From Wenxinia saemankumensis (GTDB lineage: Bacteria > Pseudomonadota > Alphaproteobacteria > Rhodobacterales > Rhodobacteraceae): 64,000 bases of DNA. How positions within the stretch are numbered: the first letter of the stretch is position 1; each line of letters opens with the position of its first letter. A program made the translations under genes and the position numbers. Below, piece by piece: positions 2,065 through 42,215 of this stretch. Below the pieces are notes generated by a model that was not told the origin of the DNA, made no database searches, and worked only from the letters and a program-made list of their open reading frames with translations. The stretch lies in assembly GCF_900141735.1 (NCBI RefSeq), contig NZ_FQYO01000002.1, positions 372,001 through 436,000 on the forward strand. Reading direction: 5' to 3'.

Positions 2065-2178
2065 GGGGCGCCTTTCTCGCTGGTGGGCGCAATAGGACGG
2101 ATTTCGCCCGCCGCCGCAATGCGGCCCGCGCGGCAGGGCGCCCGTGCCGGGCCGCGTACGGGGGCGAAGGCCGGCGGC

Positions 2179-2210
2179 CGCGGTATTTGCGGACCCTGCG
2201 AAGGAGGGGG
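2179..2210 (+). repeat. Dispersed GTATTTGC-type intergenic repeat, copy A
   Basis: This segment reads CGCGGTATTTGC, a variable bit, then GCGAAGGAGGGG. Near copies occur at 20922-20950 and 35655-35690. All three lie between genes and carry the core GTATTTGC followed 8-12 bases later by a purine run. I recall similar gagtatttg-purine elements scattered between genes in Rhodobacteraceae genomes. Function unknown; this copy lies 3' of the PhnD-like gene. Confidence 0.6.
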
Positions 2211-2284
2211 GCGGGGCGCGCCGCCCCCGGGGGGGAGCGGCGTCGCTGGTGCGACGGTCCGGGCCGAACGGCGGTTCGGGCGGG

Positions 2285-3043
2285 TCAGGCGGCGCGGCGG
2301 ATCGGCGCCTCCGGGAGCGCCATGTCGTAATCGCCCGAGGGGAGGCGGACGAGGCCGCGCAGGCCGAGCGTGGCGCGATGGTCCGGCGCGAGGCCGTCGA
2401 TCGCGGCGGCGAGCGCGGCGCGCAGCGTGCCGGCGATGCCGGGATCGGCGGTGACGAAGCTCTGCCCCGGCGAAGTGCCGGTACGGCCGACGACCCGCAC
2501 CTCCCGCGCCGCCGGGTCCCAGCGCCGCAGCATCGCCCAAGTGATCGAATCGATCGCGGCGAGATCGGCCCGCCCCTCCGCGACGGCGGCGAGGCTGTCG
2601 GCATGGGCGCCGGTCTCGAGATGGGGCGCGAGACGCAGGCCGCGCGACTCGGCCCAGGTCCAGACCGCGCCCCAGCCCGAGCAGGACATCGGATCGTTGT
2701 AGGCGAGGCGGTGGCCCGCCGCCTCCTCGGCCGTGCGGGCGGGGTCGTCGTGGCGCACGACGAGAACCGAGTGGTAATGCCCGGGCGGGCAGTCGGGCAG
2801 GCCGTAATCGCCGCAGCCGAGCACGGTGAGACGCTCGCAGTGGAGCGCGCGGAGCGGCAGGTTGCAGATCTGGCCGACCAGCAGGTCGTCGCGCGCCCAG
2901 CCGTCCATGTAGGGGACGTCGCGGTCGAGCGCCTCCGGCGCGTCGATCCCGGCCTGGCGCAGCCGGTCGCGCAGGTCCGCCCAGAGGGCGTCGTGCGCCG
3001 CCGCCGTTTCGGGGCGGTCGTACATCGGGAAGGCGGCGAACAT
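2285..3043 (-). CDS. PhnD-like phosphate/phosphonate-type binding protein without signal peptide
   Basis: A 252-residue protein resembling the PhnD-like domain (PF12974) of phosphonate/phosphite ABC binding proteins. Visible features: MFAAFPMYDRPE at the start, LVGQICNLPLRAL, GCGDYGLPDCPPGHYHSVLVV, LAYNDPMSCSGWGA and LAAIDSITWAML. These match the fold with hinge strands and the small-residue ligand loop NDPxSxSG. There is no signal peptide or lipobox, so it is probably cytosolic, unlike a transporter component, and no permease or ATPase partner of this type adjoins it. The ATG at 3043 shares one base with the stop of the TerB-like gene (TGATG), so the two are translationally coupled. Role unknown; it may sense a small anion or act as an enzyme-like relative. 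Confidence 0.7.
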   Translation of the reverse strand: MFAAFPMYDRPETAAAHDALWADLRDRLRQAGIDAPEALDRDVPYMDGWARDDLLVGQICNLPLRALHCERLTVLGCGDYGLPDCPPGHYHSVLVVRHDDPARTAEEAAGHRLAYNDPMSCSGWGAVWTWAESRGLRLAPHLETGAHADSLAAVAEGRADLAAIDSITWAMLRRWDPAAREVRVVGRTGTSPGQSFVTADPGIAGTLRAALAAAIDGLAPDHRATLGLRGLVRLPSGDYDMALPEAPIRRAA

Positions 3044-3498
3044 CACGCCCTCCGCGCGGCGGCCCGCTGCCGGGCGAGGCCGCTGTCGCGATCCTCGATC
3101 CCGAGCAGCGGGGCGACCATGCGCAGCAGCGCGTCCTCCTCCTCGTCGCGCTCGCCGTCGGCGAGGACGACCTCCCACAGCGCCTCGATCACGGTGATGC
3201 GCTCCTCGTAGGGGACTCCCTCCTTGATGGCGCGGGTGAAGCGGACGGTGTCGGGCGCCTCGGCCTCGACGGCCTCGGCCTCGGTCCGCAGCGTGCCCGC
3301 CGCCTCGGCGGTGAGGGCGAAGCGGCGCGCGAGCACGCGGTCGATGCGGGCGATCTCGCCGGCATCGTAGCTGCCGTCGGCGCGGGCGATGCGGACGAGA
3401 AGGGCGGCGAGCGCGAGCCTTGCATCGGGCTCGGGCAGGCGGTCGGCCTCTGGCTGGGCGAGGCGGCGAAGGAAATCGGCGATCATGCGGCGCGACAT
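3043..3498 (-). CDS. TerB-family (tellurite-resistance-like) protein
   Basis: A 151-residue, all-helical, acidic protein with the TerB pattern: RLALAALLVRIARADGSYDAGEIARIDRVL in the first half and RITVIEALWEVVLADGERDEEEDALLRMVAPLLGI in the second. The two D-G-x-x-x-x-E segments are the metal-binding-like acidic turns of the family (PF05099). It starts 15 bp downstream of the rlmJ stop after GAGGGA and overlaps the next gene by one base, so rlmJ, this gene and the PhnD-like gene form one operon. The link to tellurite is by family name only; such stand-alone proteins are widespread with no firm function. Confidence 0.8.
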   Translation of the reverse strand: MSRRMIADFLRRLAQPEADRLPEPDARLALAALLVRIARADGSYDAGEIARIDRVLARRFALTAEAAGTLRTEAEAVEAEAPDTVRFTRAIKEGVPYEERITVIEALWEVVLADGERDEEEDALLRMVAPLLGIEDRDSGLARQRAAARRA

Positions 3499-3513
3499 AG
3501 GGCAGGTCCCTCG

Positions 3514-4281
3514 TCAGGCCAGCGCGGCGAACCTCGCGGCAAGCCGCGCCGCCTCGTCCGCGAGGCCGAAGGGCGGGTTGATGACGGCGAGGCCGGAGCC
3601 GATCATCCGGTGCCCCTCGCGGGCCGGCGGGAAGCGCACCTCGTGGAGAAAGACCTTGTCCGGCAGGGAATCCGTCAGCGGCGCCTCAGCCCCGGTGGTG
3701 AGGAGGGGGTACCACAGGACCAGCACCCCGACCGGCCAGCGGCGGTGGAGCGCGCGCAGCAGGGCCGGCATCGCCGCGAACTCGGCCTTCACCTCGTAGG
3801 AGGGGTCGATCAGGCAGAGGCCGCGGGCGGGATCGGGCGGCACTGCGCCCTTCGCCATCTCGACCCCGTCGCGCTTCTCGATCGTGGCGCGTCGGCCGAG
3901 CAGGGCGCGCAGGGCCGCCTCCTCCCGGGGGTGCAGCTCGGCGAGGCGCATCCGGTCGTCCGGCCGCAGCAGCGTCGCCGCGAGAAGGGGGGAGCCGGGA
4001 TAGGCCCCCGCCCCGTGATCCGCGCGGATCCGGGCCAGGGCGCGCGAGAAGGGATGCGCCGCCGGGGCGAAATCGTGGTCGCGCCCGATCCCGGCGGCGG
4101 CTTCGCCGGTGCGGGCGGCCTCGGCCCCCGACAGGTCGTAGAGCCCGCGCCCGGCATGGGTTTCCATGTAGGTCAGGGGCTTTGGCTTGGCCGTCATGTA
4201 ATCCAGCATCCAGGCCAGCAGGACATGCTTGTGCAGGTCGGCGAGGTTCCCGGCGTGGTAGGCGTGTTGGTAGGACAGCAT
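3514..4281 (-). CDS. rlmJ: 23S rRNA (adenine-2030-N6)-methyltransferase RlmJ
   Basis: A 255-residue protein starting MLSYQHAYHAGNLADLHKHVLL, the hallmark N-terminus of RlmJ (formerly YhiR), then TYMETHAGRGLYDL, the SAM-binding region, and CLIDPSYEVK, the D-P-x-Y/F catalytic motif of N6-adenine methyltransferases. It would methylate A2030 of 23S rRNA using S-adenosylmethionine. Length is slightly under the E. coli enzyme (280). The ATG at 4281 is preceded by GGGAA; the upstream extension is not conserved-looking. It is the first gene of the operon with the TerB-like and PhnD-like genes and is divergent from the OmpV-like gene at 4388. Confidence 0.92.
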   Translation of the reverse strand: MLSYQHAYHAGNLADLHKHVLLAWMLDYMTAKPKPLTYMETHAGRGLYDLSGAEAARTGEAAAGIGRDHDFAPAAHPFSRALARIRADHGAGAYPGSPLLAATLLRPDDRMRLAELHPREEAALRALLGRRATIEKRDGVEMAKGAVPPDPARGLCLIDPSYEVKAEFAAMPALLRALHRRWPVGVLVLWYPLLTTGAEAPLTDSLPDKVFLHEVRFPPAREGHRMIGSGLAVINPPFGLADEAARLAARFAALA

Positions 4282-4322
4282 GGTTCCCGCTTGGCGCGGG
4301 GCGTCACGCTTGTCCAGCCGTC

Positions 4323-4350
4323 TTGCCGGCCGGGGGCGGCCGGCTATGCT
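4323..4350 (+). promoter_or_regulatory. Candidate promoter of the mipA-like gene with an internal palindrome
   Basis: TTGCCG (4323-4328) and TATGCT (4345-4350) are 16 bp apart and point at the gene starting at 4388, about 38 bp downstream. The spacer holds a perfect inverted repeat GCCGGCC / GGCCGGC (4325-4344) that would sit under RNA polymerase, so it may be an operator. Prediction from sequence only. Confidence 0.42.
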
Positions 4351-4387
4351 GCGGGACGACCGCCTGCCTGCCTCGAAAGGGCCCGCC

Positions 4388-5143
4388 ATGATCCGTCCGA
4401 TCCTTCTCGCCGCCCTCGTCCTGCCCGCCGCCGCCGGGGCGCAGGAGACGGGCAACCGCATCGTCTTCCAGCTCGGCGGGGGCGCGGCGAGCGTGCCGGG
4501 CTATTTCGGCTCGCCCGAGACCGAGATCGTGCCAGATCTCGCCTTCTCCTTCGCCTATGCGCGGCTGGGCGGTTTCGAGTTCGGCGACCCCGACCCCTAT
4601 GCGCGGGCCAGCGGCCTCGGCTTCGGCGCCTCGTTCCGCGTGGTGCCTGAGCGGACCGCGCGCGACTATCCCGAGCTCGCGGGGCTCGATGATCTCGAGC
4701 AGGCGGTCGAGCTGGGCGGGCAGGTCAGCTATGCCGGGCCTGGATTCGAGGCCTTTGCCGCGTTGCGTTACGGCGTGACGGGCCACGAGGCGCTGGTGGG
4801 CGAGGTCGGGCTCGACGCGGTGCTGCGCCCGCAGGAGGATCTGGAGCTGACGCTCGGGCCGCGGGTGGTCTACGGATCGGACGATTACGCGGACTACTAT
4901 TTCGGCATCAGCGCGGCCGAGGCGGCGGCGAGCGGGGTCGACGCCTTCGCGGCCGGAGCGGGGATCGTCTCTGCCGGGATCGCCTTCGGGATGGAGTACC
5001 GTCTCGCCCCGGCCTGGTCGCTCTACGGCACGGCGCGCTACGACCAGCTGCAGGGCGATGCGGCCGACAGCCCGATCACCTTCGACGACGAGCAGGTGAG
5101 CGTCTCGCTCGGCATCACGCGGACATTCGACCTGCGGTTCTGA
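4388..5143 (+). CDS. MipA/OmpV family outer-membrane protein
   Basis: A 251-residue protein with a Sec signal peptide (MIRPILLAALVLPAAAGA, then QETGNR). The mature part has alternating amphipathic strands: YFGSPETEIVPDLAFSFAYARL, GFGASFRVVPER, ELGGQVSYAGPGFEAFAALRYGVTGH, LGPRVVYGSDDYADYYFGIS and AWSLYGTARYDQL. It ends with FDLRF, where a terminal aromatic residue suits BAM-assembled barrels. This is the MipA/OmpV family (PF06629), MltA-interacting protein or porin-like. Role in this organism unknown: peptidoglycan enzyme scaffold or small-molecule channel are both possible. The start is the ATG opening the signal peptide. Transcribed alone, divergent from rlmJ and convergent with pyrG. Confidence 0.87.
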   Translation: MIRPILLAALVLPAAAGAQETGNRIVFQLGGGAASVPGYFGSPETEIVPDLAFSFAYARLGGFEFGDPDPYARASGLGFGASFRVVPERTARDYPELAGLDDLEQAVELGGQVSYAGPGFEAFAALRYGVTGHEALVGEVGLDAVLRPQEDLELTLGPRVVYGSDDYADYYFGISAAEAAASGVDAFAAGAGIVSAGIAFGMEYRLAPAWSLYGTARYDQLQGDAADSPITFDDEQVSVSLGITRTFDLRF

Positions 5144-5256
5144 CGGGCAACCCCCGGAGCGCCCGGGAAATGCCCGCGCAACAACCTGTAGTTGAACGAT
5201 TTCCGGCCGCTTTCGTTGAAACCAGAAACGCCTGCCCATCGTTGAGGCGGCAGGGA

Positions 5257-5275
5257 GCCGGGGCGCCGCCCCGGC
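5257..5275. terminator. Perfect hairpin between convergent mipA-like gene and pyrG
   Basis: GCCGGGGC and GCCCCGGC form a perfect 8-bp stem with a 3-base loop. It sits between two convergent genes and could stop transcription from either side, but there is no T-run on either strand. A Rho-independent role is therefore only possible, not shown. Confidence 0.33.
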
Positions 5276-5371
5276 CCCGGGGGTAACGAGTGCCGGAGGG
5301 TGGGCCCGAGGGTCCCTCTCCGGAAGGTTCGGCGCCCGGTCCGCCCGGCGGCGGGCGGCGCGGTGGGGGGC

Positions 5372-5420
5372 GGTCAGTCCCCGTCAGGCCCCGGTCAGGC
5401 CCGGTCAGGCCCCGGTCAGG
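5372..5420. repeat. Five helically phased GTCAG(G)CCC repeats 3' of pyrG
   Basis: The pentamer GTCAG starts at 5373, 5383, 5394, 5404 and 5415, i.e. spacings of 10, 11, 10 and 11 bp, averaging 10.5 bp, one turn of B-DNA. The flanking bases are mostly GCCC(C)(G). It ends 18 bp from the pyrG stop, on its 3' side. I recognise no known element. It could be a simple tandem repeat made by slippage, or a phased protein-binding array. Confidence 0.7.
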
Positions 5421-5437
5421 CGGGAGCCGGGCCGCAG

Positions 5438-7081
<1,644 letters not shown>

Positions 7082-37674: not shown

Positions 37675-37918
37675 GCCTGCCCCCCGCGGGTTCATCGACC
37701 GGGAAATGATCCGGCCCTGTGCTGTCAAATCGGAAAAGGATCCGCGCGTGGCGGCCCCCCCTGTCGAAACGTCGCGCCCCCCGGGACCGGCGGGCCGCGG
37801 CAATGCGCTTGCGGCGACCCCTGCCTTCTAGGATCCGTGCGCCGATGTCGTCATACCCCGATTGGGGCAAACCGGGGCATGCGGCGGGAAAATCGCGGGG
37901 CGAGCCGCCCGCCCCCTC

Positions 37919-39718
37919 TCAGCGCCGGGGGGGCAGATGGCGCTCCAGTTCGTCCAGCACGTCGCGCCATTCGCGGAAGAACAGCAGTTGCCCGGCGCCG
38001 GGATAGCGGCGGAAGTCGATCCAGCCGTATTCGGCGACATGCTCCTCAAGCGTGGCGAGGGGGACCTGGGGGTCCTGATGGCCGCTGAAGAACACGACCG
38101 GCCGGCCGGAGGCGCGGAGCGCGGCGAGGTCGGCGCTCCAGTCCGTGCGCTCGTGGCTGATGACCTCGCGGGTGAAGGCCTCGTGCGCGGAATGATCCTC
38201 GCTCAGGGCCACGTCCGAGCCGCAGACCATCGCCTCGTAGACCTCCGGGATCTCGAAGGTGGCGACGTCGGCGGCCGACTTGCCGTAGACCGAGTGGACG
38301 AAGTAGCGCTTGCCCTTGCGCCGGGCGAGCGCGAAGCCGCCCTTGACCATGAAGGGCAGGAGCTGCGGCGTGTAGCGCGCCGAGGCGAGGATGAACCGGT
38401 GCCACTTGTCCATCCGCTCGTACTGGTCGGGGCGGGTGAGCGGCAGCACACCCGAGGCGCAGATCAGAGCGGCGATGCGGGCCGGGTGGCGCGACTGCAG
38501 GCGGTAGCCGAAATAGCTGTCGTTCCCGAGCGTCAGAACCGGGCAGGCGGCGATGCCGAGATGGTCGAGCAGCGCCGCGTGATCGTCGACGATCGTGTCG
38601 GCATAGGGGGCGCCCTTCGGCAGCGGGGTCGACCGGCCGTAGCCCGGCCGGATCGGGACGACGATCCGCATGCCGCGCGCTGCGGCCGCAGCCTCGGCGC
38701 TGGCGGGCCACCGGACGAGTCCGTAATCCAGCGGGTAGTACAGTACCGGCCGCCCGGCGGGATCGCCGAGCAGGAGGTACTCGATCTGCCGCGGCCCGGG
38801 GCGGTCGAGGCGGAAGACTTCGCGCGGGGCGAGCGTGCCCTGACCGATCGACCGGCCGGCCGGGGCCGGCGCCCGGCCCGGCAGGCGGGCGAGCTCGGTC
38901 AGCGACAGCGTCAGGCGGACCAGCTCGCTCTGGCCGCGGGTCTCGGTCTTGGAGAGGATCGACTTGATCTGCGCCCGCACCGTGCCGACGCTGCGCCCCC
39001 TCTGTCCGGCGATCTGCGGCGCGCCGAGCCCCTCGCAGAGGCCGCGCACCACCTCGCACTCGGCCCGGGTCAGCTCGAAGGCCTGGGAGAGCAGCTCGGC
39101 GATCCCCTCGCTCCAGCCCAGCTCGGACGAGATGACGAGGACGAAGGGCGCCTCGCCCTCCGGCGCGACGTGCCGCAGGTTCAGCAGGACGACGCGCCCG
39201 TCCTCGGGCCCGTGGACCCGCATCACCGTCGGGGACGGGCGGGGGGAGGCGAACATCCGGGCCAGCTGCCGCAGCAGCAGGTCGGCCTCGCCCGCGGCGA
39301 GGCGCATCGCGTCGAGCCGCGCCTCGGCAGCGAGGCCGAAGACCTGCGCCGCCGGCGGGTTCAGGCCGGCGACCCGGCCCCCGCGATCGACGACGAAGGC
39401 GGCGCTGTCGATCCCGTCGAGGGCGGCGCGGACGCTGTCGCGGCCGCCCCCGTCGGCCAGGGCGCGGTCCAGCATCGCGGCGGCCCGGCGGGTGTGATCC
39501 TCGATCCGGGGGAGCGGCGGGTCGATGGCGGCGCGCGGATCGTTCGCGGCGGCGCGGTGCGGGGCGATCAGCGCCTCCCACCTGTCGAGAAGGTCCTCGT
39601 AGCGGGCCGGGTCGACCGCCACGTCGTAGAGCCGGCCGATCAGGTCCTGGGCGTCGTCCTCCGGCACCGCGTCGGGGCGGGGCGGGGGGGCGGAGTCTCT
39701 GCGGCTTGGACGGGACAA
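37919..39718 (-). CDS. PAS-LuxR-alpha/beta-hydrolase fusion regulator with degenerate catalytic site
   Basis: A 599-residue one-protein regulator. Residues about 92-200 look like a PAS-type sensor (ALDGIDSAAFVVDRGGRVAGLNPPAAQVFG). Residues 213-275 are a LuxR/GerE DNA-binding domain (LTRAECEVVRGLCEGLGAPQIAG, SVGTVRAQIKSILSKTETR, SELVRLTL). Residues 300-599 are an alpha/beta-hydrolase fold (YLLLGDPAGRPVLYYPLDYG, VPIRPGYGRS, DHAALLDHLGI). The nucleophile elbow reads GNDSYFG (398-404) instead of G-x-S-x-G. The acid D549 (SGHQDPQVP) is kept, but the usual final Gly-His is YPGAGQLLFF, with Gln577 in place of His. It may thus bind a ligand rather than cleave one. Start TTG 39718 or GTG 39667; neither has a clear ribosome site. 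Divergent from the CLC gene. Confidence 0.85.
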   Translation of the reverse strand: MSRPSRRDSAPPPRPDAVPEDDAQDLIGRLYDVAVDPARYEDLLDRWEALIAPHRAAANDPRAAIDPPLPRIEDHTRRAAAMLDRALADGGGRDSVRAALDGIDSAAFVVDRGGRVAGLNPPAAQVFGLAAEARLDAMRLAAGEADLLLRQLARMFASPRPSPTVMRVHGPEDGRVVLLNLRHVAPEGEAPFVLVISSELGWSEGIAELLSQAFELTRAECEVVRGLCEGLGAPQIAGQRGRSVGTVRAQIKSILSKTETRGQSELVRLTLSLTELARLPGRAPAPAGRSIGQGTLAPREVFRLDRPGPRQIEYLLLGDPAGRPVLYYPLDYGLVRWPASAEAAAAARGMRIVVPIRPGYGRSTPLPKGAPYADTIVDDHAALLDHLGIAACPVLTLGNDSYFGYRLQSRHPARIAALICASGVLPLTRPDQYERMDKWHRFILASARYTPQLLPFMVKGGFALARRKGKRYFVHSVYGKSAADVATFEIPEVYEAMVCGSDVALSEDHSAHEAFTREVISHERTDWSADLAALRASGRPVVFFSGHQDPQVPLATLEEHVAEYGWIDFRRYPGAGQLLFFREWRDVLDELERHLPPRR

Positions 39719-39995
39719 GGGGCGACGGACCGGGCTGACGGGAACGGGGGTGCCGCTAGGGTACCCCGGCCGGGCCGGCGAGGCGAGTCCCGCGAGGATG
39801 CGACCTGCGGCCGCGGATCACGGGCGCGCCGAACAGGCGTCCCGGTCGCGGCGCGGCCGATCCCGCGGACCCGGCCCCTCCCGCACGGGGGGCGACACGG
39901 CACCTGCGCCGGCGGCCGGTTTGGAGGCCGACCGGAGGGCGGGGCCTTCCGGGACGCGGCCCCACGGGCTATGACGCGCCCTGCAGCAAGGGACG

Positions 39996-41816
39996 ATGAT
40001 GCCGACAGACCCTCCCCGATCTTCCGGCCCGGGCACGCGCGCCGATGCCGGTCCCGGCCCCGCTGGGGGTGGCGGACCCGGTCTGGCGGGGGGCGCCGGC
40101 ACTCCGGGCGAGCGCGGCGCACCGGCCCGGGCCCGCCCGGCGGCCGGCCTCGTCCGGGCCGGCGCGGGGGCGGCATCGGGGGCCGTGGCGCGCGCCTGGG
40201 ACCTGCTGCTGCGGCGCGGACCCGACCAGGCGCAGTTCTGGGTCATCGCCCTCGCCCTCGGCATCGTGGCGGGGGGCGCGGCGGTCGCGTTCCGCTGGGT
40301 GGTGGCCCGCATGCAGGCCGCACTCTACGGGACCGACGACATCAATACACTCGGCAGCTTCGCCGCGACGCTGGACTGGCACTGGATCGTCCTGATCCCG
40401 GTGGCGGGCGGCCTCGCCGTGGGGCTGCTGCTGCACCGCTTCCAGATGGACGGACGCGTGCGCGGCGTGCCCGAGGTGATCGAGGGCGCCGCCCTCTACG
40501 ACGGGCGGGTCGAGCGGCGGCGCGGCATCCTGTCGACCCTCGCCTCCGCCATCACCCTATCGACCGGCGGCTCCACCGGGCGCGAGGGGCCGGTCGTGCA
40601 CCTCGCCGCGATCCTCTCCTCGTGGATCGCCGTGCGGATCAACGCCAGCGGCATGGTCGGGCGCGACCTTCTGGGCTGCGCGGTGGCGGCGGGCGTCGCG
40701 GCGAGCTTCAACGCCCCCATCGCGGGGGCGATCTTCGCGCTCGAGGTCGTGCTGCGGCACTACGCGATCCACGCCTTCGCGCCCATCGCCATCGCCAGCG
40801 TCGCGGGCGCCGTGACCAGCCGCATCGCCTTCGGCGACGTGCGCGAGTTCGACCTGCCGGTGCAATCGGCGCTCGCCTTCTATGTCGAGCTTCCCGCCTT
40901 CCTGCTGCTCGGCCTGCTCTGCGGGGCCGTCGCGGTCGTGCTGATGCGGTCGATCTTCTTCGCCGACCGGGTGGGCAGCGCGGTGCAGGCGCGGCTGGCG
41001 CTGCCGATCTGGGCGCGGCCGATGGGGGCGGGACTGCTGCTCGGGCTGATGGCGCTGGCCTGGCCCGAGATCATCGGCGTCGGCTACGAGACGACGAACC
41101 GCGCGCTCTCGGGCGAGTACGGCTTTTTTGCCTGCGTGACGCTGGTCGCGGTCAAGGTGGCGGCGGTCGCGGTGACGCTGGGCGGGCGGATGGGCGGGGG
41201 CGTCTTCTCGCCCGCGCTGATGGTCGGGGCGCTGACCGGACTCGCCTTCGGATCCGTGGCGACCGCGCTGGTGCCCGAGATGTCTGGCGAGGGGGCGCTC
41301 TACGCCCTGGCGGGGCTGGGCGCGGTGACGGCGTCCGTGCTCGGTGCGCCGGTCTCGACCACGCTGATCGTGTTCGAGCTGACGGGCGACTGGCAGGCGG
41401 CGGTGGCGGTCCTGGCGGCCGTCTCGACCGCCGTCGCGGTGTCGAGCCGGGCGGTCGACCATTCCTTCTTCCTCACGGCGCTCGGCAAGCGGGGCGTGCG
41501 GCTGGCGGCGGGTCCGCAGGCCTGGCTGCTGGGCACCTTGCGGGCGGAGGAGGTGATGCGCGGCCCGGACCATCCGCGCGCCGCCGATGCCGAGATCGCC
41601 GAGCGCCTGGTGACGGAAGGCACGTACCTGCCGCGCGACGCGACGCTGGAAGAGGCGATGCCGGTCTTCGAGGCGACGGGGGCCGCCTTCCTGCCCGTCG
41701 TCCGCTTCCCGCCCGGCGATTCCCCGCCCGAGATCGTCGGCGCGGTCTTCCAGACCGACGCGCTGCGCGCCCTCAACGCCGCGCTGGTGGCGCAGGCGCG
41801 GGAGGAACATTCCTGA
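39996..41816 (+). CDS. CLC-family chloride channel/antiporter with C-terminal CBS-like domain
   Basis: A 606-residue CLC protein. A 70-residue disordered G/A/P/R tail is followed by about 16 membrane segments (80-490). Anion-path motifs: RGVPEVIEG (155-163, at the GSGIP place), GREGPVVHL (195-203, gating Glu197), FNAPIAGAIFALE (238-250) and GGRMGGGVFSPALMVG. The C-terminal 100 residues (AEEVMRGPDHPR, FEATGAAFLPVV) resemble a CBS domain. Relative to the E. coli exchanger the filter Ser is Arg155 and the internal proton Glu203 is Val251, so transport type (channel or exchanger) is uncertain. ATG at 39996 or 39999; the second is better spaced from AAGGGA. Confidence 0.92.
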   Translation: MMPTDPPRSSGPGTRADAGPGPAGGGGPGLAGGAGTPGERGAPARARPAAGLVRAGAGAASGAVARAWDLLLRRGPDQAQFWVIALALGIVAGGAAVAFRWVVARMQAALYGTDDINTLGSFAATLDWHWIVLIPVAGGLAVGLLLHRFQMDGRVRGVPEVIEGAALYDGRVERRRGILSTLASAITLSTGGSTGREGPVVHLAAILSSWIAVRINASGMVGRDLLGCAVAAGVAASFNAPIAGAIFALEVVLRHYAIHAFAPIAIASVAGAVTSRIAFGDVREFDLPVQSALAFYVELPAFLLLGLLCGAVAVVLMRSIFFADRVGSAVQARLALPIWARPMGAGLLLGLMALAWPEIIGVGYETTNRALSGEYGFFACVTLVAVKVAAVAVTLGGRMGGGVFSPALMVGALTGLAFGSVATALVPEMSGEGALYALAGLGAVTASVLGAPVSTTLIVFELTGDWQAAVAVLAAVSTAVAVSSRAVDHSFFLTALGKRGVRLAAGPQAWLLGTLRAEEVMRGPDHPRAADAEIAERLVTEGTYLPRDATLEEAMPVFEATGAAFLPVVRFPPGDSPPEIVGAVFQTDALRALNAALVAQAREEHS

Positions 41817-42215
41817 GAAGGCCGGTCGCGCCGGAGGGGGCCCACCCCCCGGCGAGTTTCAGAGTGTGACGATCGTCAGGGGGGCGCTCATTCCCCGGCA
41901 GGTTGCAGGCCGGGCCGCAGGCCGGGGCGGGAGCCCTTGTCCGGCGGGCGCCGCCCTCCGGGCCGGCCGAAGTCCCCCTCGGGTTCAGCTTCGGCCGGCG
42001 GCTGCGGCCGAGGGACGGGGGCGAAGCGACCGGACCGGCGCCCGCGCGCCGGATGAGCCCGTTCCGTCGCCGGGCGTGTCCTTCCCCGATCGGACATGGT
42101 CGGCCCCGGATGCGGGGGCGGGCCGGTCCGCGTCTCGGCGCCGGGGCCCGGTCACGGTCCGCACCGGGGCGGCCCGGGCCGCACCGGAAGCTGCGCGGCG
42201 GGCAGGCCGGCGGCG
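41817..42215. other. Intergenic region after the CLC gene
   Basis: A 399-bp stretch between the convergent CLC and DUF427 genes. Frames here lack a ribosome site and family resemblance. The only structure I note is a near-tandem GCAGGCCGGG (41909-41931). No terminator with a T-run is visible. Confidence 0.4.

Follow-up and report, generated by a model that had tools for sequence, protein, structure and literature searches.

What does a transcription regulator do with an alpha/beta-hydrolase fold whose active-site residues are out of place? The question is raised by a gene of the marine bacterium Wenxinia saemankumensis that lies in the window, the whole 64,000-nucleotide stretch of DNA analysed here. 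The original prediction read its product as a LuxR-type regulator fused to a hydrolase that had been turned from an enzyme into a ligand sensor. The regulator gene is a real coding gene, as judged from its base composition and from the way it diverges. GC by codon position is 0.76/0.51/0.94 (GC3 0.94), and the differences from the Wenxinia marina homologue number 153/159/238 by codon position over 595 codons, the third position differing most often. Full-length relatives are present in many Rhodobacterales. An antisense open frame (37862-41869, plus strand, 1335 aa) overlaps the regulator and extends beyond it; most likely this frame is a mirror of GC-rich coding and no gene.

Domain layout and fold

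The chain runs from N-terminal helices through a PAS domain and a LuxR/NarL-type helix-turn-helix (HTH) to a full alpha/beta-hydrolase domain (ABH; Table 1). The proposal that one polypeptide holds all three domains is confirmed by the open reading frame, by Pfam and by fold matches, with domain limits that were correct to within a few residues. In the window protein, Pfam scores GerE at residues 216-269 with 23.6 bits, against a cut-off of 23.5. PAS_4 at 100-199 (22.6 bits) lies slightly below its cut-off of 23.1, and Abhydrolase_1 at 343-423 (22.2 bits) lies below 25.8. At E<=0.001, GerE is matched by 61 of 70 relatives, Abhydrolase_1 by 41 and PAS_4 by 5. An autoinducer-binding domain is absent from the Pfam matches up to E=1, which comprise just GerE, three PAS families and Abhydrolase_1.

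Residue conservation was read from two alignments, A3 (the window and 69 of 77 listed loci, 70 rows) and A4 (the window and 38 of 75). Rows of A3 were chosen with patterns on [PH][LQI]D[YF]GL[VTI]RW and KTET..Q, which retained 80 of 127 relatives. The A3 counts for D331, G333, R336 and W337 are biased upward by these patterns, and D400, D549 and Q577 lie outside them.

Table 1. Features of the regulator gene, in window coordinates
Feature	Coordinates	Strand	Details
Whole gene, PAS / LuxR-type HTH / alpha-beta-hydrolase one-component regulator	37919..39718	(-)	599 aa, TTG start, TGA stop; fused relatives
N-terminal helices, residues 20-89	39452..39661	(-)	predicted models; invariant Y31, P37, W47, H75 and R78 in alignments A3 and A4
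PAS domain, residues 92-200	39119..39445	(-)	PAS_4 just below cut-off; fold matches to PAS domains, EL222 and VqmA; without Cys
LuxR/NarL-type HTH, residues 206-277	38888..39103	(-)	GerE above cut-off; DegU, VraR, DosR and NarL fold matches
Variable linker between HTH and hydrolase, residues 278-298	38825..38887	(-)	pLDDT <50 at 280-286; mean column entropy 2.64 bits, the highest of seven measured regions
Complete alpha/beta-hydrolase fold, residues 299-599	37922..38824	(-)	VIA match to 9wlv
Asp331, directly after the former HG (oxyanion) motif	38726..38728	(-)	D in 67/70, a count biased upward by row selection
Former nucleophile elbow GxSxG, T396-L397-G398-N399-D400, Ser replaced by Gly398	38519..38533	(-)	gapless alignments; modelled strand/helix
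Cap (lid), residues 425-525, limits set by the analyst	38144..38446	(-)	best-conserved part of the ABH
Asp549, catalytic-acid position, retained	38072..38074	(-)	Asp in 67/70
Gln577, replacing the catalytic His	37988..37990	(-)	Gln 65/70, His 0/70

At the level of fold, the chain holds a LuxR/NarL HTH, a PAS domain and a complete ABH with its cap. An AlphaFold2 model of the window protein, built with 70 sequences, reached a mean pLDDT of 89.2 and a pTM of 0.79 over the full length; by 10-residue block, pLDDT in the ABH ranges over 80-98, with the minimum at 501-510. The completeness of the hydrolase fold, part of the original prediction, is borne out by the match to 9wlv, with a VIA Z of 28.5 and an rmsd of 2.6 over 286 residues at 26% identity. 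After 9wlv, the ABH matches at Z ~21-23 are mostly dehalogenases and epoxide hydrolases.

Residues 1-282 were folded separately (pLDDT 83.8, pTM 0.60). Their top Foldseek matches are EL222 and VqmA, both PAS/LOV-HTH regulators, and their top VIA match is phage VqmA, at Z 13.0 but with an rmsd of 8.8. Single PAS structures match at Z ~11-12 over ~100 residues, mostly at 2-4 Angstrom (VIA), and single HTH domains at 1-3 Angstrom, DegU, VraR, DosR and NarL being among the VIA matches. By these models, the N-terminal half consists of PAS and HTH domains of the EL222/VqmA class, whose modelled placing relative to each other is tentative. The first 200 residues of the window protein contain no Cys, and the PAS domain being without Cys rules out LOV flavin-adduct photochemistry there.

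The former active site and the spread of the fusion

Gly398 pairs with the nucleophile Ser of 9wlv and of 4y7d, with no gaps around the elbow. With the window as reference, 183 of 186 aligned hydrolase domains are without an indel at 385-420, and the AlphaFold2 model passes from a strand (392-397) into a helix (398-410). From the gapless elbow alignments, the scarcity of indels and this strand/helix boundary, we infer that the triad positions are G398/D549/Q577. The nucleophile had been sought at N399/D400/S401 (GNDSYFG), a register that these alignments overturn: D400 occupies the place of the final Gly in GxSxG. The alignment agrees with the two other assignments made earlier, D549 as the acid and Gln577 at the place of His. 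The HG oxyanion motif reads P329-L330.

As aligned, nucleophile and base are both lost and the acid is retained. This is a more severe loss than had been supposed, the nucleophile being gone as well as the base. In the sequence alignment the standard places for a Ser, Cys or Asp nucleophile, an acid and a His read G398/D549/Q577, which is no active hydrolase set. Nor is the protein an Asp-nucleophile hydrolase of the haloalkane or fluoroacetate dehalogenase or epoxide hydrolase kind, since position 398 is Gly and D400 stands two residues on; these families nevertheless rank high among the ABH fold matches. D400 as the nucleophile of a self-labelling, HaloTag-like covalent-capture receptor was considered and rejected, because gapless alignments place G398 at that site.

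The fusion is widespread. Searches matched 113 of 394 genomes in the window's own family (E<=1e-20), 36 of 385 at the level of the class and, at E<=1e-30, 41 of 398 at the level of the phylum, the last including 19 genomes of f188, a family outside the class; part of the matches in each search are HTH alone or hydrolase alone. The span from the HTH to the end of the ABH is covered in 172 of 183 non-redundant profile matches (profile start <230, end >540). The worry that the fusion might be an artefact is thereby removed, as it is recovered in relatives.

Triad states vary across 186 hydrolase domains. G-D-Q is found in 85, M-D-Q in 13, S-D-Q and S-D-H in 12 each and L-D-Q in 10, with others fewer; nine of the S-D-H domains are fused and three standalone. 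A possible triad is retained in 11 of 183 fused rows (9 with Ser, 2 with Asp), these rows being selected fetched relatives rather than a random sample, some of which match the HTH profile only partly. In the window's clade of 95 members, position 398 is Gly in 82, Ser in 10, and Ala, Leu and Thr in one each. Position 577 is Gln in 89, Tyr in 3, and Asp, Ala and Glu in one each, with His in none, and the acid position is Asp in 92. The ten Ser-398 members are all without His at 577. Two residues singled out in the original prediction, D400 and Q577, prove conserved among homologues (70/70 and 65/70 in A3); A3 is used here because the clade was defined by D331, R336 and D400, which makes its own 95/95 for D400 circular.

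Standalone relatives carry GxSxG, Asp and His in 9 of 9 cases. Among the 13 members of f188 that were fetched, four (L261, L266, L267 and L273) have Ser-Asp-His and the other nine are without one or two of the triad residues. Catalysis was probably lost several times, because standalone and some fused relatives, also outside Alphaproteobacteria, keep Ser-Asp-His. Minimum changes on a tree of 113 of the 186 rows are at least 6 for the His state and at least 14 for the Ser/Asp/Cys state of position 398; the tree is a quick one with no mixture model, in which long branches meet and the outgroup row L236 is misplaced, and it served just for these counts and for hand-picking clades for the cap comparison. 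The simplest history would be that an active hydrolase was fused to a PAS-HTH regulator and that repeated catalytic loss followed, a direction that depends on an uncertain root.

Several relatives are of interest in their own right. Tandem fused regulators occur in L161 (G352:C1), where frames at 2076-3944 and 3974-5755 read G-D-L beside G-D-Q, and in L222 (G515:C16), where adjacent frames read V-D-Q beside A-D-F, the latter frame being cut by the locus end and having an indel near the elbow. Both pairs look as if they were duplicated and diverging. Fused relatives in L185-L187, L202, L228-L230 and L272 have Asp at the nucleophile place and retain His, the acid also being kept in L185 and L187 only; such proteins may act as enzymes with an Asp nucleophile or as covalent sensors. 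One fused clade (L196-L199, L214 and L217) has an intact Ser-Asp-His, with the HG oxyanion motif changed to Asp-Ala, and its members are promising candidates for a regulator with enzyme activity.

Conservation of the cap and the proposed mode of action

Within the window's clade, identity averages 32% for the PAS domain, 60% for the HTH, 48% for the ABH core and 63% for the cap, and cap identity exceeds core identity in 4425 of 4465 pairs. The order is inverted in nine standalone relatives with intact triads (cap 18% vs core 36%, cap above core in 0 of 36 pairs), a small control, from which one duplicate and the fused L243 were excluded and whose divergence exceeds that of the window's clade. 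In the M/L-D-Q clade, core identity equals that of the standalone control at 36%, cap identity is 44%, and the cap is ahead in 172 of 190 pairs. The cap exceeds the core in just 1 of 15 pairs in one small sister clade and 2 of 6 in another; in the fused clade whose Ser-Asp-His is intact, it does so in 15 of 15. Because this intact-triad fused clade shows the conserved cap and the two sister clades do not, the inversion of cap and core tracks fusion and not strictly catalytic loss.

The old site is held as well. Ten residues are invariant in all 70 rows of A3: D400, R357, R435, M436, W439, D484, G546, G576, F581 and W584. That D400, R357, R435, W439, F581 and W584 are identical throughout argues that the former active site is not decaying, and this conservation points to a dead site under selection. 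Since the old active-site residues are held too, the cap is more likely a ligand lid than an interface. Two of three catalytic residues are lost, yet the lid is strongly conserved, so a built-in receptor role is probable.

Our preferred reading, to which we give a probability of about 0.6, is that the regulator is a one-component receptor that binds a small molecule in its non-catalytic ABH, with cap closure altering PAS-HTH packing and DNA binding. The protein would be a cytoplasmic transcription regulator whose N-terminal half is a PAS-HTH unit like those of EL222 and VqmA. Its C-terminal ABH would be unable to run the classical reaction, with Gly398 for Ser and Gln577 for His, and the pocket of this domain, beneath the conserved cap, would hold a small molecule without turnover. 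Closure of the cap would change how the ABH packs against the PAS-HTH half, and this altered packing would switch HTH dimerisation and DNA binding. The PAS domain may serve for dimerisation, or as a surface touched by the hydrolase, as excerpts of a study of RsbQ and the RsbP PAS domain suggest for that pair (PMC3183031). As a guess at the ligand, a cationic or aromatic molecule could suit the conserved D331, D400, W337, W439, W527 and W584, and the ester or lactone-type ligand proposed at the outset is not borne out by the present analysis. Of the idea of a pseudo-enzyme turned sensing domain, the substance stands, as triad loss, widespread fusion and the conserved cap and old site all fit sensing; the nucleophile register that came with it does not.

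The same conservation could be read differently if the ABH were a protein-protein module, its cap docking on the PAS domain, the HTH or a partner with no small molecule involved. No part of the ABH is better conserved than the cap, which may be a surface, the residue at position 398 differs widely among clades, and a direct contact between RsbQ and PAS was proposed for the RsbQ-RsbP pair from two-hybrid and pull-down experiments, according to excerpts of that study (PMC3183031). We nonetheless consider this unlikely, because a surface role needs none of the constraint seen around the old site, where D400, G576 and F581 stand at 70/70, D549 at 67/70 and Q577 at 65/70. A surviving enzyme with a rearranged catalytic set, such as D331/D400/D549 or S501 with H512, and maybe with another reaction type, is quite improbable. 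These residues are indeed conserved (D400 70/70, D549 67/70, the cap residues S501 and H512 68/70 and 63/70, and D331 67/70 with the upward bias of the patterns), Ser appears at 398 in 10 of 95 clade members, and the intact Ser-Asp-His of some fused relatives indicates that activity may coexist with the architecture. However, the ABH has no invariant His column in the 70 rows, His is missing from 577 in the clade members with Ser at 398, and the H512 column is a gap in 74 of 91 rows outside the window's clade.

That the hydrolase is an inert, stabilising remnant and the PAS domain alone senses strikes us as very unlikely. EL222 and VqmA, whose folds come closest, are not known to need any hydrolase for their function. 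Yet the PAS domain is much less conserved than the cap (32% vs 63% mean identity), relatives in different families, and outside the class too, retain a full-length ABH, and the window's PAS domain, being without Cys, would have no LOV photochemistry to sense with. We therefore retain the reading in which a ligand-binding ABH acts on the HTH of its own chain.

Gene surroundings and relation to known systems

Gene order was compared in 68 loci, the window's own among them, that have 4.5 kb or more of flanking sequence on each side; L218 and L031 both represent one W. marina locus. The gene recN lies convergently downstream in 29 of them and CLC upstream in 28; a FAD-linked oxidase gene (PF01565/PF02913), the commonest upstream partner, separates CLC from the regulator in 22 of these 28. 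Six loci, the window's included, have CLC directly adjacent and divergent, and two of the six are the one W. marina locus. The suggestion that the regulator controls CLC is not supported by this gene order. The FAD-oxidase gene is no fixed partner of the regulator, because in the window's genome the best match to it sits on another contig, at 56% identity and with a TGA within the matched stretch. An inositol-monophosphatase homologue is upstream in 13 of the 68 loci (Roseovarius-type). In the Roseovarius-type loci L058, L061, L063, L065-L067, L069, L076 and L077, the regulator follows this homologue on the same strand, with Ser at 398 and Gln at 577. A wider locus survey found lipB downstream in 15 loci (L156 type) and 105 loci without any marker gene, many of these with short flanks. 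The arrangement of neighbours seems to have been inherited with the location and does not point to a target. Among 87 non-redundant stretches upstream of the clade members' genes, no operator is common to most; GC-rich CGCG-N3-CGCG dyads are enriched, occurring in 17 of the 87, against 9 in the best of four shuffles, and TTGACC-N4-GGTCAA occurs in 4, against 2 in the best of four shuffles for that length.

Tentatively, and at somewhat less than even odds, we propose that Pseudomonadota contain a family of PAS-HTH-hydrolase one-component receptors not described before, formed by the repeated and independent conversion of active hydrolases fused to a DNA-binding domain into non-catalytic small-molecule receptors, a bacterial parallel to plant GID1/D14. 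The individual parts, sensing by PAS plus hydrolase, and pseudo-hydrolase receptors are already known; no LuxR-HTH/alpha-beta-hydrolase regulator was found among the papers that literature searches listed (titles and abstract openings, with subscription journals thinly covered). If the proposal is true, living members stand at several stages of the conversion (Ser-Asp-His, Asp-Asp-His, Ser-Asp-Gln and Gly-Asp-Gln). Plant hormones offer the best-known conversion of hydrolase to receptor, and the same step seems to have been repeated within bacterial transcription factors, where it is open to experiment because intact-triad and dead members share an architecture. The strong conservation of the cap across many roseobacter genera suggests one shared ligand; if the Rhodobacterales clade does share one, that ligand would be a signal or metabolite common among marine roseobacters. 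Many such regulators may be miscounted as enzymes, since annotation is mostly 'alpha/beta hydrolase': among the 25 plasmid records listed, 23 bear that name and 2 'LuxR C-terminal-related transcriptional regulator'.

Known systems share parts of this design. LuxR-type acyl-homoserine-lactone receptors join a LuxR HTH and a small-molecule sensor in one chain, as the window protein is presumed to do, with the autoinducer-binding domain preceding the HTH. The window protein lies outside that class, having the order PAS, HTH, hydrolase and no autoinducer-binding domain among its Pfam matches. EL222 and VqmA have a PAS domain followed by a LuxR-type HTH, matching the N-terminal half of the window protein, and neither is known to carry a C-terminal hydrolase. 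Unlike the LOV domain of EL222, the window's PAS domain is without the adduct-forming Cys and is thus no LOV photoreceptor. The closest solved fold to the ABH is 9wlv, an alpha/beta-fold hydrolase of Microlunatus sagamiharensis, which differs in being standalone and in having Ser (GWSGG) and His (GHL) at the active-site places.

In RsbQ-RsbP of Bacillus subtilis and relatives, a hydrolase and a PAS domain form a bipartite sensing module coupled to an output domain, which excerpts of PMC3183031 give as a phosphatase (PPM), a histidine kinase or a diguanylate cyclase (GGDEF). The likeness lies in an alpha/beta-hydrolase and a PAS domain in one sensing unit. In these excerpts RsbQ is a separate protein encoded next door, with a highly conserved and required Ser-Asp-His (PMC3183031), whereas the window regulator is a single chain with a LuxR HTH as output and a lost triad, and so falls outside that module type. 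The gibberellin receptor GID1 is suggested, in excerpts of PMC3531792, to descend from hormone-sensitive lipases through loss of the active-site His; its retained Ser and Asp touch the hormone, and it signals through protein partners. With GID1, as these excerpts portray it, the window regulator shares an alpha/beta-hydrolase fold without the catalytic His, a lid over the pocket and the existence of intact-triad relatives, and it differs in losing Ser as well and in carrying a DNA-binding domain in the same chain.
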